Assembly: GCF_010894435.1 (NCBI RefSeq)
Contig: NZ_JAAIXZ010000009.1
Span: 62,001 to 126,000 of the forward strand
DNA: 64,000 nucleotides
Source of the DNA: Pyxidicoccus trucidator
GTDB lineage: Bacteria > Myxococcota > Myxococcia > Myxococcales > Myxococcaceae
Reading direction: 5' to 3'
Shown in pieces: positions 21,163 to 28,026 of this stretch; the stretch's first letter is position 1, and every line of letters starts with the position of its first letter. The translations under genes were made by a program, and so were the position numbers. The notes under the pieces are model-generated. The model saw only the letters and a list, made by a program, of their open reading frames with translations, was not told where the DNA came from and did not search any database.

Positions 21163-21621
21163 GTGAGTGCCCCAGAAATCCGCCGGATTCCCGCGGCCGA
21201 GACTCGCGGTCTCCGCCACACCGTGCTCCGCCCCAACCAGCCGCCCGAGATGGCCGTCTACCCGGGGGACGAGGACGGGGACACCCTCCACCTGGGCGTG
21301 TACACACAGGGCCGCCTCGTGGGCGTGGCCTCCCTCTACCGGGAGCCGCCCCCGGACTCCCTCCGGGCCACCACGGCCTGGCGCCTCCGGGGCATGGCGG
21401 TGGACAAGACGCTCCAGGGCCATGGCCACGGCGCCGCCCTCCTGCGGGCCTGCATGGAGCACGCCGCCCAGCAGGGGGGCTCCCAGGTGTGGTGCAACGC
21501 CCGCACGACGGCCTCGGGCTTCTACCGCTCGCTCGGCTTCTCCCAGAAGGGGGACGCCTTCGAGCTTCCCGGCATCGGCCCCCACCACTTCATGTGGCGC
21601 ACCCTGGAGTCCTCCCGATGA
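21163..21621 (+). CDS. GNAT-family N-acetyltransferase
   Basis: 152 residues. The acetyl-CoA loop is visible as RLRGMAVDKTLQGHGHGAAL, followed by a helix and ASGFYRSLGFSQKGDAFELP, typical of GNAT enzymes. The acceptor substrate is unknown. It starts with GTG and has a poor ribosome site. Its stop overlaps the pheA start as ATGA, so it may be read as the lead gene of the aromatic amino-acid operon. Confidence 0.85.
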   Translation: MSAPEIRRIPAAETRGLRHTVLRPNQPPEMAVYPGDEDGDTLHLGVYTQGRLVGVASLYREPPPDSLRATTAWRLRGMAVDKTLQGHGHGAALLRACMEHAAQQGGSQVWCNARTTASGFYRSLGFSQKGDAFELPGIGPHHFMWRTLESSR

Positions 21622-22757
21622 GCACGATTCCCGACCTGGAGGCGGTGCGCGTCGCAATCGAGAGCATCGACGAGGAAATCCTCGATGCGCTCCGGCGGCG
21701 CATGGGCCTGGCGGACGATGTGGCGCGGGCGAAGCTGGCCGCGGCGGCGCCCTTCCGAGATCAGCGCCGCGAGGACCTGCTCCTGCGCCGCATCCGCACC
21801 CGCGCGGCGGAGCACGGGTTGGATCCGCACGAGGTGGAGCGCATCTGGCGCCTCTTCATCGACATGTCGGTGGCGCGGCAGCAGGAGCTCGTCACGCGGT
21901 TGGACACCACGCCGCTGCGCGTGGGCTACCCGGGCGTCGAGGGCTCCTACAGCCACCTGGCCGCGCGCCAGCGCTACGCGAATCGGCCGGGCGGCGTGCT
22001 GCTCACCGGCTTCGACCTGCCCCGCGAGGCCGTGGACGCCCTGCGCAAGGGTGAGCAGGACCTGGTGCTGCTGCCGATTGAGAACACCACCGCCGGCAGC
22101 ATGAACGAGACGTATGACCTGCTCGCCGATGGGGGCGTGGTCATCACCGCCGAGCTGGTGAGCCAGGTGGCCCACCGGCTGTTGGGCCTGCCGGGCGCGA
22201 AGCTGGAGGGGCTGCGCGAGGTGCTCTCCCACCCGCAGGCGCTGGCCCAGTGCGAGGCGTTCCTCCGGACCACGGTGCCCTGGGCGCGCGCGGTGCCCGA
22301 CCTGGACACCGGCGGCGCGGCGCAGAAGGTGCGCGAGCGGAATGACCCGGCGGTGGCCGCCATCGCCAGCGAGACGGCGGCGCAGCGCTTCGGATTGGAA
22401 GTGCTCGCCAGGGACTTGCAGCCCGCGTCGGACTACACGCGCTTCGTGGAGGTGGGCCGCGAGGCGACGCCGCTGGCGCCGGGCGTGCCGTGCAAGACGT
22501 CGCTCCTGATGGTGCTGGAGCACAAGCCGGGAACGCTGGGGGAGATGCTGCAGCGGCTCACCCTGCGCGGCGTCAACCTGAGCAAGATTGAGTCACGGCC
22601 GATTCCAGGCCGGCCATGGCAGTACCGCTTCTACCTGGACGTGGAGGGCCACGCCGCCTCCGCGCCGCTGATGGCGGCCCTGGAGGACATCCGTCCGCTG
22701 ACGTCGTTCCTGCGCGTGCTGGGCACCTATGCGCGCGCCGAGGGTCCTCATGGCTGA
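21618..22757 (+). CDS. pheA: Chorismate mutase/prephenate dehydratase (P-protein)
   Basis: 379 residues with three domains. Residues about 5-90 form an AroQ-type chorismate mutase (IESIDEEILDALRRRMGLAD). Residues about 95-275 are prephenate dehydratase (VGYPGVEGSYSHLAA, LPIENTTAGSMNETYDLL, catalytic YTRFVEVG). Residues about 290-375 form an ACT domain (KPGTLGEML, ESRPIPG) for phenylalanine feedback. It converts chorismate to phenylpyruvate. It overlaps the GNAT gene by 4 bp and the second dehydratase gene by 8 bp. Confidence 0.92.
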   Translation: MSTIPDLEAVRVAIESIDEEILDALRRRMGLADDVARAKLAAAAPFRDQRREDLLLRRIRTRAAEHGLDPHEVERIWRLFIDMSVARQQELVTRLDTTPLRVGYPGVEGSYSHLAARQRYANRPGGVLLTGFDLPREAVDALRKGEQDLVLLPIENTTAGSMNETYDLLADGGVVITAELVSQVAHRLLGLPGAKLEGLREVLSHPQALAQCEAFLRTTVPWARAVPDLDTGGAAQKVRERNDPAVAAIASETAAQRFGLEVLARDLQPASDYTRFVEVGREATPLAPGVPCKTSLLMVLEHKPGTLGEMLQRLTLRGVNLSKIESRPIPGRPWQYRFYLDVEGHAASAPLMAALEDIRPLTSFLRVLGTYARAEGPHG

Positions 22758-23571
22758 GCCGAAGCGCCGCATCGCCTTCCAGGGAGAGCACGGCGCCTAC
22801 GGAGAGGAAGCCGTGCGCGCGCTGCACGGCCCGCAGGTGGAGTCCGTGCCCTTCCCCACCTTCCGTGCCGTCTTCGAGGCCGTGGCGGAAGGGAGCGTGC
22901 AAGGCGGCGTGGTGCCGGTGGAGAGCACCCTCGGTGGCCCGGTGGCGGAGAACGTGGACCTGCTGCTGGAGCACGACCTCCAGATTACCGGCGAGCTGTC
23001 CCTGCGCATCCGCCACTGCCTGCTGGCCCCGCCGGGACGGACGCTGGACGGAATCGACCGCGCCATGTCCCATCCGCAGGCGCTGGCGCAGTGCGCGGGC
23101 TACCTGCGCAGGCGCGGCATCACCCCCGTGCCGGAGGCGAACACCGCCATCGCCGCGCGCCGGGTGGCCGAGGAGACGCCGCCCCGCACGGCCGCCATCG
23201 CCAGCCGCGTGGCGGGGGAGCTGTACGGGCTGGCGGTGCTGGACGTGGGCGTGGAGGACTCGCCGGACAACCACACGCGCTTCGTCACCCTGGGCCCCGC
23301 GCCCGAGCGTGCGTGGACGCGGAGGAAGACGGCGCTGGCCTTCACGGTGGAGAACACGTCCGGCGCGCTGTACCGGGTGCTGAGCGCCTTCTCGTCACGC
23401 GGCCTCAACGTGGCGCGGCTGGAGTCCCGGCCGCAGCGCCGCGCGTGGGAGTACGTGTGGTGCATGGACGTGGACGGCGCGCTGGAGGACCCACGCGTGC
23501 GCGAGGCGGTGGACGCCGCCCAGAGCGCCTGCATCACCCTGCGGGTGCTCGGCAGCTACGGCGTGGCGTGA
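22750..23571 (+). CDS. Second prephenate dehydratase with ACT domain
   Basis: 273 residues, a paralogue of the downstream two domains of the preceding PheA without chorismate mutase. The motifs are IAFQGEHGAYGEEA, VPVESTLGGPVAENVDLLLE, SHPQALAQC, the catalytic NHTRFVTLG, and an ACT domain with TSGALYRVL and ESRPQ. Both copies keep the Thr-Arg-Phe catalytic motif. It may give an isoenzyme with different feedback, or a cyclohexadienyl (arogenate) dehydratase. ATG 22750 has GAGG upstream inside pheA. Confidence 0.88.
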   Translation: MAEPKRRIAFQGEHGAYGEEAVRALHGPQVESVPFPTFRAVFEAVAEGSVQGGVVPVESTLGGPVAENVDLLLEHDLQITGELSLRIRHCLLAPPGRTLDGIDRAMSHPQALAQCAGYLRRRGITPVPEANTAIAARRVAEETPPRTAAIASRVAGELYGLAVLDVGVEDSPDNHTRFVTLGPAPERAWTRRKTALAFTVENTSGALYRVLSAFSSRGLNVARLESRPQRRAWEYVWCMDVDGALEDPRVREAVDAAQSACITLRVLGSYGVA

Positions 23572-23720: not shown

Positions 23721-24839
23721 TCAGGCCCCGGCGGGCTGCAGGCCGTCGCCGTTCTTCACGCCCGCGACGTACGCCTCGCGGATGATGCGCGTGTAGTTCT
23801 GGAGCGCCGGGAGCTGCGCCATGCGCAGGGCCTGCGGGCCGTCGCACAGGGCGGCATCCGGCTGCGGGTGGAAGTCCACCAGCACCATGGACGCGCCGGC
23901 GATGAGCCCCTGGCCGATGGCGTGGAAGATGTCCGGCAGCCCGTCCGGCGGGGGCGGGGCCTGGCCAATCGCGTGCGACGGGTCCACGCACACCGGCATG
24001 CGCGTCAGCCGCCGCACCACCGGCACGTGGGCGAAGTCCACCATGTTGCGGTGCGGGTCGCCCAGGTGCGTCTTCACGCCGCGGAGGCAGAAGACAATCT
24101 TCGGGTTGCCCTCGCTCGCCACGTACTCGCAGGCGTTGAGCGACTCCTCCAACGTAATCCCCATTCCGCGCTTGAAGAGCACGGGGAAGGTGCGCTGCTG
24201 GCCGATGCTCTTGAGCAGCTCGAAGTTCTGCGCGTTGCGCGTGCCCACCTGCAGCATGACGCCGGTGGCGTTGCCCGACTTCTCCAGCGCGTCGCGAATC
24301 TCGTCGATGTGGCGCGGGTGCGTCACCTCCATCGCGATGACCTTGATGCCGTGCTTGCCGGCGGACTCGAACACCCACGGGAGGCACGCGGCGCCCAGGC
24401 CCTGGAACTCGTAGGGGTTGGTGCGCGGCTTGTACGCGCCCATGCGCGTCGTCTTGATGCCGCACTGAGCGAGCGCGGCCATCATCGTGTCCACGTTCTC
24501 GCGGTTGTCCACGGCGCACAGGCCCGCGAACAGCTGCACCGACTTCTCATCGAAGGTGATGCCGTTGTACTCGAAGCCCGAGGACGCCCGCTGCCCCTTG
24601 TGCCGGCCGATGACCCGGTACTTCTGGGACACGCGGACGACCTGGCGCACGCCCGGTATCGCCTCGAAGGGCTCGGTGGGGACCTGCGCGGTGGGGCCGA
24701 GCAGGTACACCTCGGTGACCGTGTACTCGGCGCCCTCCATGACATGCGCCCGAGGAGTCACCCCCTTGAACTGCGAGGCAACCTTGAGGACGGTGGACAC
24801 CACGGACTCAGGCGAGTCCGGCTCGAGCATGACGATCAT
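23721..24839 (-). CDS. aroF: 3-deoxy-7-phosphoheptulonate (DAHP) synthase, class I beta type
   Basis: 372 residues. An N-terminal ferredoxin-like regulatory domain (about 1-75, starting MIVMLEPDSPESVVSTVLKV) precedes the TIM barrel with KPRTNPYEFQGLG, LQVGTRNAQNFELL, VLFKRGMG, CLRGVKTH and DPSHAIGQ. It condenses PEP and erythrose-4-phosphate, the entry step to chorismate. One oddity: the usual AGPC motif near the metal-binding cysteine reads AGLC here, and GARN reads GTRN. ATG at 24839 follows GGGAG. It faces the pheA operon tail-to-tail. Confidence 0.85.
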   Translation of the reverse strand: MIVMLEPDSPESVVSTVLKVASQFKGVTPRAHVMEGAEYTVTEVYLLGPTAQVPTEPFEAIPGVRQVVRVSQKYRVIGRHKGQRASSGFEYNGITFDEKSVQLFAGLCAVDNRENVDTMMAALAQCGIKTTRMGAYKPRTNPYEFQGLGAACLPWVFESAGKHGIKVIAMEVTHPRHIDEIRDALEKSGNATGVMLQVGTRNAQNFELLKSIGQQRTFPVLFKRGMGITLEESLNACEYVASEGNPKIVFCLRGVKTHLGDPHRNMVDFAHVPVVRRLTRMPVCVDPSHAIGQAPPPPDGLPDIFHAIGQGLIAGASMVLVDFHPQPDAALCDGPQALRMAQLPALQNYTRIIREAYVAGVKNGDGLQPAGA

Positions 24840-25740: not shown

Positions 25741-28026
25741 TCACAGCCGGATACCGGCCTGCACGCCGGGCCACCAGATGAAGTGCTTGGGCCCCTGGCG
25801 GGAGAAGCTGCTCAGCGCGGTGGTGGCCTCGCCGTCCACGGAGTGCAGCAGGTTCATCGTGGGCCCGGCGATGATGGAGAAGTGCTTCGCCACCTGGAAC
25901 CCGCCAATGACCCGGACCTGGTGCAGGAAGCGTTCGGTCGTGAAGCTCGCATCCCAGCCGTAGACGGAGTGGGTCATCCCATCCACGTCGACGAAGAACC
26001 GGTCCGTCACCGGGATGTGCCCACCAATGCCCGCGCCCAGCGTCCAGTGGCTCGGCCCCTGGGAGCCCGTGACGCGGCCCATGCCCACCGCCACCGTCGT
26101 GTAGAAGTGGCGGCTGCCCACCTTGATGGCGGTGTTGGCGAAGGTGATGTCGCTGCCGTACGCCTCGACGTGGAACTGGCCGTTCTTCACGATGCTCAGG
26201 ATGCCCACCGGCACGCCGGACTCCACCTCCTTCGCCACGTTGATGATGCCGAGCTGCAGGCCGTTCATCTTCTCCGCGACGTTGATGAGGCCCAGCTGCA
26301 TGCCCGCGACGTCCCCGCCCACGTTGAGGAGCGACACCTGCGCCCCGTGCGCCGTGGCCGCATAGTTCATGCCCACGGACATCTGCACGCCTGACATGCG
26401 CCCACGGACCATGTTGAGGCCCACGGTGCCCTGGTAGCCACCGAAGTCTCCCTGCACCCAGTTGGAGCCCACCGACAGCTGCGCGCCGTCCAGCGAGGTG
26501 CTCGACAGGTTGCCGCCCACGGCGAACTGCCCCGCGAGGCCGCCCTGGCGCGCGATGTTGAGGCCCACCGCGGCCTGCACGCCGCCCAGCGGGCCGGTGG
26601 CGTGATTCCCACCCACGGCGAGCTGCGCACCCGTCACGTCCGCGCGCGCCACGTTGCCGCCAATGGCCATCTGGATGCCACTCACGGCCTGCGAGGCCCA
26701 GTTCGCGCCCAGCGCCATCGCCAGGCCGTCCAGCCGCCCCGTGCGGCCCGCCCCCAGCGAGAACGAGAAGTGGTTGTCCACGGCGCCACCGAACAGCGCA
26801 TTGGTGTCCACGCCCGGGAACAGTCCCACGTTGGCGAAGACGCGCCTGCGCGGCGGGCCCTCGTCCAGGGACAGGGCCGGGGCCGACAGCCCGCCACCGG
26901 CCACCGGGGCCAGGCCGTCCAGCCGGGGCGTGCCCCCGCCGCGCATGGCCGTCATCTCCACGCCCACCGGGCGGAAGGCGCTCTCCGCCAGCACGACGCG
27001 CCCGCCCTGGTCCAGCACCAGCTCCGCCTGCGAGCCCTCTCCGAGCGACTCGCGCATCACCGTGTAGCGGCCCGGCTGCAGGCCCAGCTCGGTGGCGCGG
27101 CCGGCGAACTTCTTCAGCTCGACGACGAGCCGCCCCGGCGCGTCGCGCACGTAGAGGCGCCCGTCGAGCATCTCCCCCAGCACCAGCACGGCGGCGGTGG
27201 AGCGCAGGTCCGTCATCACCAGCTCGCCCGTGCCTGCCAGCTCGATGTCGTAGGCGGGGTGCTGCGCGCCGGCCCGCGTCTTCTCCGTGCGCGCCAGCGT
27301 CTCGTGGAAGGCGAACTGGTACGCCTCGTGGAGCGTCACCCGGCCGTCGCCGGTGGCGTCCGCCGCGCCGCGCATGCCGGACACCAGGTTGTGGGTGAAG
27401 AACGAGCCGCCGATGCGGTCGGACTCCTGGGACACCTCGTCCTCGGAGGACGACGTGAGGATGGCGTGCCCGCGCACCGCGGTGGACGCGTCCACCAGGA
27501 AGGCCGGCCGCCGCACTCCGCCCTTCTGCCGCGCCAGCGTGCCCGACGCGCACGAGTCGAGGATGGCGATGCGCACGTCCGCGGGCAGCGACTCCAGCGC
27601 CTGCCGCAGCTCGCGGTAGCCGAAGCGGTCCTTCTGGAGCAGCAGCCCCTCCTCGTCCGAGTGGCCCGAGTAGTAGACGAGGGCCTCCGTCCGGCCGCCC
27701 GCGCCCTTCGCCGCGGCAATCATCGCCTTGAAGCGGGTCAGCGCGTTCTCCAGCTCCGCGCGGCCGCCCTCCATCAGCATCAGCCGGTCCTGGGGCTGGA
27801 CGCCGCCCAGCTCCTCCAGCACGTCGCCGAAGGAGCGCGCGTCGGTGACGGCATAGCGGAGCCTGGCGCGGCCGGGGCCGCCGTCATTGACGCCCACCAG
27901 CAGCGCGAAGCGGCGCACCGACTGGGACGGAGCGGCGCCGGGCGCGGAGGCCGCACGGGGGGCGGAAGCCGCCAGGGCCAGCGTGGGAAGGAGCAGGAGC
28001 GAGAACAGGAGCGACCGCGTCATCAC
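25741..28026 (-). CDS. Secreted caspase-family (peptidase C14) protein with C-terminal surface repeats
   Basis: 761 residues. A signal peptide (about 1-20) is followed by a caspase-like domain (about 38-260) with the catalytic histidine in YYSGHSDEEG and cysteine in ILDSCASG. A linker has a PEGA-like strand region (GRYTVMRESLGEG). The C-terminal half (about 430-650) has many imperfect repeats of the form G-x-Q-x-A-x-G-x-N, ending in GMQLGLINVAEKMNGLQLGI, typical of LA_2272-type surface repeats, then a beta-strand tail. By position it could correspond to actE of M. xanthus (inference). The start overlaps the previous stop. Confidence 0.82.
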   Translation of the reverse strand: MMTRSLLFSLLLLPTLALAASAPRAASAPGAAPSQSVRRFALLVGVNDGGPGRARLRYAVTDARSFGDVLEELGGVQPQDRLMLMEGGRAELENALTRFKAMIAAAKGAGGRTEALVYYSGHSDEEGLLLQKDRFGYRELRQALESLPADVRIAILDSCASGTLARQKGGVRRPAFLVDASTAVRGHAILTSSSEDEVSQESDRIGGSFFTHNLVSGMRGAADATGDGRVTLHEAYQFAFHETLARTEKTRAGAQHPAYDIELAGTGELVMTDLRSTAAVLVLGEMLDGRLYVRDAPGRLVVELKKFAGRATELGLQPGRYTVMRESLGEGSQAELVLDQGGRVVLAESAFRPVGVEMTAMRGGGTPRLDGLAPVAGGGLSAPALSLDEGPPRRRVFANVGLFPGVDTNALFGGAVDNHFSFSLGAGRTGRLDGLAMALGANWASQAVSGIQMAIGGNVARADVTGAQLAVGGNHATGPLGGVQAAVGLNIARQGGLAGQFAVGGNLSSTSLDGAQLSVGSNWVQGDFGGYQGTVGLNMVRGRMSGVQMSVGMNYAATAHGAQVSLLNVGGDVAGMQLGLINVAEKMNGLQLGIINVAKEVESGVPVGILSIVKNGQFHVEAYGSDITFANTAIKVGSRHFYTTVAVGMGRVTGSQGPSHWTLGAGIGGHIPVTDRFFVDVDGMTHSVYGWDASFTTERFLHQVRVIGGFQVAKHFSIIAGPTMNLLHSVDGEATTALSSFSRQGPKHFIWWPGVQAGIRL

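Follow-up and report, generated by a model that had tools for sequence, protein, structure and literature searches.

Gene layout of the prephenate dehydratase pair

In this work, two adjacent genes for prephenate dehydratase (PDT) were analysed in a stretch of 64,000 nucleotides from Pyxidicoccus trucidator (contig NZ_JAAIXZ010000009.1, positions 62,001 to 126,000), which is called the window below and is numbered from its first letter. The first gene (copy 1) encodes a fusion of chorismate mutase, PDT and ACT domains, and the second (copy 2) a PDT-ACT protein. Genera, genomes and loci are designated by codes beginning with g, G and L, respectively; the window belongs to genus g1. The features of the pair are the following.

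21618..22757, + strand: copy 1, chorismate mutase-PDT-ACT by Pfam, 379 aa (ATG at 21618, TGA at 22755-22757)
21645..21884, + strand: chorismate mutase domain of copy 1 (residues 10-89; PF01817, 72 bits; aligns with 1ecm)
22083..22085, + strand: Asn156 of copy 1, the PxEN Asn, kept (reference alignment)
22431..22433, + strand: Asp272 (GAC) of copy 1, replacing the NxTRF Asn (N in 98 of 99 references)
22497..22691, + strand: ACT domain of copy 1 (residues 294-358; PF01842, 32.6 bits), ESRP kept
22750..22757, + strand: 8-base overlap ATGGCTGA, stop of copy 1 and start of copy 2
22750..23571, + strand: copy 2, PDT-ACT by Pfam, 273 aa (ATG at 22750, TGA ending at 23571)
22801..22803, + strand: Gly18 of copy 2, replacing Ser (S in 94 of 99 references)
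22924..22926, + strand: Ser59 (AGC) of copy 2, replacing the PxEN Asn (N in 98 of 99 references)
23269..23271, + strand: Asn174 of copy 2, the NxTRF Asn, kept (reference alignment)
23335..23511, + strand: ACT domain of copy 2 (residues 196-254; PF01842, 30.9 bits), ESRP kept in g1

The coordinates, the 8-base overlap and the domain order that an earlier note on this DNA had given are all correct, as judged from the open reading frames and from Pfam matches above their cut-offs (CM_2 at residues 10-89, PDT at 102-282 and ACT at 294-358 of copy 1; PDT at 8-183 and ACT at 196-254 of copy 2). Residues 6-92 of copy 1 align with 1ecm (E 3.4e-12), so its N-terminal part is assigned to the AroQ-type chorismate mutases. 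The nearest solved relative of copy 1 is 2qmx (E 1.5e-44), which is also the closest sequence match of copy 2 (E 3.6e-49). The AlphaFold models reach a mean pLDDT of 81.5 for copy 1, in which the chorismate mutase part is low, and of 93.5 for copy 2, whose top fold matches are the PDTs 6vh5 and 2qmx (TM 0.91) and the PDT relative 7am0. Against the NCBIfam model PRK11898, with a cut-off of 219 bits, copy 2 scores 224.4 bits and copy 1 falls just under it with 210.5 bits. Furthermore, residues 6-372 of copy 1 match PRK10622 with 242.5 bits, far under the cut-off of 577.

An alternative in-frame ATG of copy 2 at 22729 gives 280 aa and a 29-base overlap. The ATG at 22750 was preferred because a start producing exactly the 8-base overlap is available in 53 of 53 orthologous mutase-to-PDT pairs of g1, g5, g6, g8 and g9. 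These overlaps include both ATG and GTG starts and both TGA and TAG stops, and some pairs have a second candidate start.

Distribution and inheritance of the pair

The 12.67 Mb genome of the window has no PF00800 matches besides copy 1 and copy 2. A PDT was found in 71 of 96 genomes of the family and an adjacent PDT pair in 59 of them, namely in all sampled genomes of g1 (27), g5 (2), g6 (16), g7 (4), g8 (7), g9 (1) and g21 (2). The g7 pairs have the opposite gene order and a partner that is no ortholog of copy 2, so the orthologous pair occurs in 55 genomes. The conservation in relatives that the earlier note had proposed to check is thus found within the family. Three g3 genomes contain two unlinked PDTs each, and nine family genomes contain one PDT. 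In none of 61 genomes was copy 1 found without a second PDT, whereas nine of the ten other PDT-bearing family genomes have a single one (Fisher p 1e-10, a value inflated by kinship). Membership of copy 1 was assigned by the tree for 38 of the 61 genomes, and by genus, mutase domain and motifs for the other 23. Locus L074 is the same record as genome G027 (g6) and was counted once in the totals of 53, 55 and 61; L002, a duplicate of L001, was dropped. Residue and overlap counts take in all genomes. No second PDT was detected near any of 79 GTDB reference loci, for which up to 3 kb per side was examined.

The two copies in the window share 34% identity. A tree of 82 rows, with two trait columns left out, was calculated with IQ-TREE, and copy 1 formed one clade with support of 100/99 (22 rows, g21 included). 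Copy 2 formed another with 100/98 (16 rows without g21), which the second gene of g21 joins weakly, at 81/80. Genera are grouped alike inside both clades (g8 with g9, g5 with g6, and g5+g6 with g1). Inside the copy 1 clade the fork of g5+g6 (91/93) and its join with g1 (84/99) fall short of the mark for strong support, and the grouping of g5 with g6 for copy 1, given by IQ-TREE, is absent from the FastTree result. From the separate clades with their parallel grouping of genera it follows that the pair is older than these genera and was inherited together. The phylogeny of the second copy, which had been called for earlier, therefore describes two old and diverged genes. A recent tandem duplication is ruled out by the low identity within one genome and by the well-supported separate clades. 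On the other hand, a topology constrained to hold both copies in a single clade gave a p-AU of 0.09, so it is possible that the pair derives from a very old tandem duplication.

Both copies are under purifying selection, with a median dN/dS in g1 (16 of 27 genomes) of 0.152 for copy 1 and 0.245 for copy 2. These values are well under 1, which rules out a pseudogene in either case. Identity figures are based on 32 genomes (including 16 of 27 from g1, and 5 of 16 from g6 plus L074), and dN/dS on the same genomes minus L074 and g9, plus g7 and g21.

Conserved motifs and the loss of two asparagines

The reference set comprised 99 PDTs. Seventy-nine loci came from a GTDB scan in which they were chosen by the patterns SHPQALAQ and FQGExGA and by their resemblance to copy 2 (the top 80 among at least 577), and 20 proteins of the same phylum were picked by hand among the matches listed. 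Reference columns inside SHPQALAQ and FQGExGA are therefore biased, whereas PxEN, NxTRF and ESRP played no part in the selection.

Both copies of the window retain the TRF motif, the SHPQALAQC stretch, the PxEN Glu and ESRP unchanged, and the earlier statement that both dehydratases keep TRF and ESRP thus holds. The description of the genes as two intact copies is inexact, because each copy has lost one near-invariant Asn. The sequence is SDYTRF in copy 1, where Asp272 precedes the Thr by two residues, and PVES instead of PxEN in copy 2, which has Ser59. The PxEN Asn and the NxTRF Asn are each present in 98 of the 99 references, and one protein, L056, a second PDT in its genome, is the exception at both columns. 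Among 61 copy 1 proteins, the NxTRF position is D in 55, H in the 2 of g21 and N in 4, which are part of g8. Among 55 copy 2 proteins, the PxEN position is S in 43 (all 27 of g1 and all 16 of g6) and N in the other 12. In g1 and g6, each of the 43 genomes carries both losses. The arrangement of IQ-TREE, in which g5 (N) stands beside g6 (S), requires at least two changes from N to S in copy 2; one change suffices if g1 and g6 form one clade, a topology that the test does not reject (p-AU 0.40).

At least 85% of the references agree at 53 columns, of which 5 are changed in copy 1 and 8 in copy 2. Among PDT-domain columns conserved in at least 98 of 99 references, the copies deviate only at those of the two Asn. 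In the ACT domain, Trp237 of copy 2 replaces a Phe found in 96 of 97 references. Both Asn would presumably be located in the substrate cleft. The PxEN Asn has an important part in catalysis by the E. coli enzyme. According to PMC8192741, four E. coli residues have a role in catalysis, and E159 and E232 seem to be important in binding the substrate.

The exceptional protein L056, together with L190 (G128:C1:6090150-6090683), represents a second chorismate mutase-PDT-ACT in a related family. L056 combines PVES and the D before xTRF in one protein, and the other PDT of the same genome (L057) keeps both Asn. Seven open reading frames surrounding L056 were compared with Pfam; one contained sigma factor domains, one a beta-helix and five had no match, which gave no clue to function.

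Unequal conservation of the ACT domains

ESRP was observed in 60 of 61 copy 1 proteins and in 46 of 55 copy 2 proteins. In copy 2 it is FPRP in g5, is altered in three g8 genomes, in g9 and in one g6 genome, and is absent from g21. The mean identity between genera is 0.746 for the PDT domain and 0.783 for the ACT domain of copy 1, and 0.680 and 0.541, respectively, for copy 2. As a control, reference pairs with a PDT identity of 0.62-0.72 (n=98) have a mean ACT identity of 0.699 with a 5th percentile of 0.568, and those with a PDT identity of 0.7-0.8 (n=35) a mean of 0.773. Thus, the ACT domain of copy 2 is unusually diverged between genera and that of copy 1 is normal. The different feedback that was suggested earlier for the two enzymes is plausible in this respect, as the ACT domain of copy 2 is relaxed between genera and ESRP or the whole domain is gone in some lineages.

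The pair in genus g21

The two genomes of g21, G081 and G082, contain a different form of the pair, with first genes 91% identical and second genes 84% identical to each other. In both, copy 1 retains the mutase, the first PDT lobe, the strand that here reads TRY and an intact ACT domain, and lacks roughly residues 182-265 in window numbering. The missing stretch appears to correspond to the second lobe of the substrate cleft, as judged from predicted secondary structures and from the domain description of GqqA. Copy 2 of g21 has 178 aa and consists of a two-lobed PDT without ACT. The loss of the lobe from copy 1 and of ACT from copy 2 would therefore place sensor and catalyst on different chains in this genus, in contrast to g1, where PDT and ACT parts are present on both. 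No further PDT was found in G081 (rated 100% complete) or G082 (82%) by the PDT profile survey of the family genomes. Section 7 of PMC8192741 describes GqqA crystals in which residues 86-170 had been lost by proteolysis, while the other two domains kept their fold and still held phenylalanine. A truncated copy 1 is physically reasonable for g21 because proteolysed GqqA behaved in this way.

Proposed division of labour and alternative explanations

We hypothesize that the pair represents old, co-translated and co-inherited PDT paralogs that divide the work of one feedback-controlled enzyme, and we put the probability of this division of labour at about 0.42. Copy 1 would provide the chorismate mutase and a conserved phenylalanine-sensing ACT domain, its own dehydratase site being altered. 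The dehydratase activity would come mainly from copy 2, whose ACT domain would matter less. The two products would probably join through the dimer interface of homodimeric PDTs, in which phenylalanine sits between two ACT domains, and phenylalanine bound on copy 1 could then control the whole pair. That the products physically associate is a tentative proposal drawn from the sequences, with the odds leaning against it. Rather doubtful is the fuller form, namely a hetero-oligomeric Myxococcaceae PDT made of two ancient paralogs, one a near-pseudoenzyme that bears the mutase and senses phenylalanine and the other its catalytic partner, with the split complete in g21. The constant presence of a second PDT beside copy 1, the Asp before TRF and the truncation in g21 together suggest that copy 1 is insufficient as a dehydratase. 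The division is also favoured by the ESRP kept in nearly all copy 1 proteins, by the divergence of the copy 2 ACT domain between genera, by the score of copy 2 above the PRK11898 cut-off and by the separated architecture in g21.

Several observations weigh against such a division. Both copies retain the two Asn in four of the seven g8 genomes, and in g1 copy 2 has lost the PxEN Asn yet keeps ESRP in 27 of 27 genomes. The ACT domain of copy 2 is conserved within g1 (identity 0.905; median dN/dS 0.206 versus 0.244 for the PDT domain), and the ACT domain of copy 1 is no better conserved between g1 and g8 (0.725) than its PDT domain (0.758). The activity of the proposed catalyst in g21 is uncertain, because its copy 2 has His and Arg at two positions where 99 of 99 and 97 of 99 references have Glu. 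In g3 and g7 copy 1 coexists with a PDT that is not orthologous to copy 2, and that is unlinked in g3; copy 1 therefore needs no copy 2 in particular. The overlap could persist merely because insertions and deletions at this point are harmful. Finally, the loss of one or two conserved columns is not in itself unusual. Over 22 PDT columns conserved in at least 90% of the references, these lose a mean of 0.47 and a maximum of 6, and each g1 copy loses 2.

The last point, together with the g8 genomes that keep both Asn, would also be expected if the genes encoded two ordinary, independently active PDTs, maintained because of dosage or because they differ in feedback sensitivity, in which the Asn changes are tolerated and no complex is formed. 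Purifying selection on both copies, the motifs that are intact in both and the prediction of copy 2, with high confidence and above the NCBIfam cut-off, as a complete PDT agree with this explanation. However, the changed residues are nearly invariant in the references and fixed throughout g1 and g6, copy 1 alone was never found, and copy 1 of g21 lacks what is taken as one lobe of the cleft, so we consider two independent enzymes unlikely, if still worth serious attention. The roles might also be the opposite in g1, where copy 2, with its change from N to S, would have little or no activity and would tune or activate its partner, and copy 1 would stay the main dehydratase. Throughout g1 and g6 (43 genomes), copy 2 lacks the PxEN Asn and also the conserved Ser; Gly occurs at the position of this Ser also in g9, in part of g8 and in one g5 genome. 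Copy 2 evolves faster than copy 1 in g1 while ESRP is kept in 42 of the 43. On the other hand, copy 2 keeps both Asn, and copy 1 is altered or truncated, in g5, g9, g21 and three of seven g8 genomes; Ser is a mild, single-base change; copy 1 has its own change at D272; and it is copy 2 that lies above the PRK11898 cut-off and copy 1 below. A tuning role of copy 2 is thus improbable.

The earlier note had also proposed another substrate, such as arogenate, for one of the dehydratases. For the second copy no specific support was obtained, and its score passes the cut-off of a prephenate dehydratase model. If either copy had turned to arogenate, copy 1 would be the better candidate, because its change is from N to D and, in the pathway enzyme TyrA, an acidic residue near the substrate side chain brings specificity for arogenate, and Asn or Gln that for prephenate, according to passages of PMC5681985. 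The altered position lies two residues before the Thr of TRF, on the same strand or at its start, and should point into the cleft, where Asp272 could contact the amino group of arogenate; D is found there in most copy 1 proteins, as given above. However, plant arogenate dehydratases generally keep Asn here, and TyrA is an unrelated enzyme. Nothing found in the window genome points to the arogenate pathway, although prephenate aminotransferase was not sought. An arogenate dehydratase in copy 1 is therefore the least probable of the explanations considered. We favour the division of labour between the two paralogs, in which the assignment of activity to copy 2 is likewise drawn from the comparison of residues and domains.

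Neighbouring genes and other observations

Two further genes are located next to the pair.

21163..21621, + strand: GNAT acetyltransferase gene (Pfam GNAT domains), with a 4-base overlap (ATGA) with the start of copy 1
23721..24839, - strand: 3-deoxy-D-arabino-heptulosonate 7-phosphate (DAHP) synthase gene, convergent with the pair (PF00793, 143 bits)

The GNAT gene has a match in one of 13 compared loci of relatives, namely the one other g1 locus, L163, and is probably outside the ancestral system. The DAHP synthase gene stands beside the pair in the window and in all seven compared loci L163 (g1), L155 (g5), L154 and L074 (g6), L156 and L164 (g8) and L157 (g9), and no match to it was found in the compared g3, g7 and g21 loci. 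It is a syntenic neighbour of the pair, and at most a candidate member of the system. Its product has Asp322 (VDFHP) where the DAHP synthase of Thermotoga has Glu (VEVHP), at a position that is presumably a metal ligand, and this Asp is kept in seven of seven syntenic relatives. Between 18000 and 26000, no RNA leader or riboswitch was matched in Rfam above the gathering scores. By eye, an open reading frame at 25741-28026 on the - strand is caspase-like in its N-terminal half, and its C-terminal half is long and repetitive; it has a match near the pair in one g5 locus and in one other g1 locus.

The single TyrA match of the window genome lies elsewhere (L033, 1162-2400), in an open reading frame that, by eye, resembles a chorismate mutase at its C-terminal end; by this reading, the genome would carry one mutase domain fused to each branch enzyme. 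In g5, G014 and G015 keep the PDT pair and have no TyrA match above the cut-off. One g7 genome contains a third, weak and partial PDT match (L048, G034:C1:1237941-1238414; 34.7 bits, in a frame of 232 aa). Twenty-five of the 96 family genomes have no PF00800 match (g2, g4, g10, g11, g13-g15, g17-g19, g22 and g24-g26). TyrA exceeds the cut-off in only one of these (G047, at threshold), and the set includes genomes rated 98-100% complete. Apparently the phenylalanine and tyrosine branches were lost jointly there, which would imply auxotrophy or other enzymes, the latter lying outside the search.

Comparison with known systems

All parts of the pair come from known families, and PDTs are known as homo-oligomers in which the sensor is fused to the enzyme. 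No paired or heteromeric PDT is described in the titles and opening parts of abstracts that were searched, a source that most subscription journals lie outside and that gives weak evidence, not proof of absence. If the division of labour is real, these pairs, which would range from two near-complete copies to a full separation of sensing and catalysis, would illustrate the evolution of a regulatory subunit from an enzyme after duplication. They would also offer natural variants (N to D, N to S, loss of a lobe and loss of ACT) for probing key residues and the action of phenylalanine across the dimer, and they would caution against scoring each PF00800 match as an independent dehydratase.

With the E. 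coli-type P-protein PheA, copy 1 shares three domains in the same order, but it differs by its score far below the PRK10622 cut-off, by Asp in place of the NxTRF Asn and by the second PDT in 61 of 61 genomes. The monofunctional PDT-ACT of Chlorobium tepidum (2qmx) has the same domains as copy 2, which differs by Ser59 and Gly18 and by a gene that overlaps a mutase-PDT gene. The prephenate decarboxylase of the BacA type catalyses a non-aromatising decarboxylation and is not known to carry an ACT domain. In acetohydroxyacid synthase (AHAS), with its large and small subunits, and in the ATP phosphoribosyltransferase (ATP-PRT) HisG-HisZ, catalytic and effector-sensing roles are placed on separate chains. 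These two enzymes are comparable only in the way they work, as here the partner is a paralog that also bears chorismate mutase, and the association is putative.

Plant arogenate dehydratases have the PDT-ACT architecture and the TRF and ESRP motifs in common with the pair, and the PAC region and Ala314 are named as their determinants in the relevant part of PMC10845154. GqqA of Komagataeibacter europaeus (7am0, 7alz) has a PDT fold and is described in PMC8192741 as a dimer with phenylalanine between the ACT domains, and its proteolysed form in section 7 of that report resembles the copy 1 deletion of g21. However, GqqA is a single protein that was reported as an N-acyl-homoserine lactone acylase, whereas the deletion in g21 is encoded in the gene and is paired with an ACT-less PDT.

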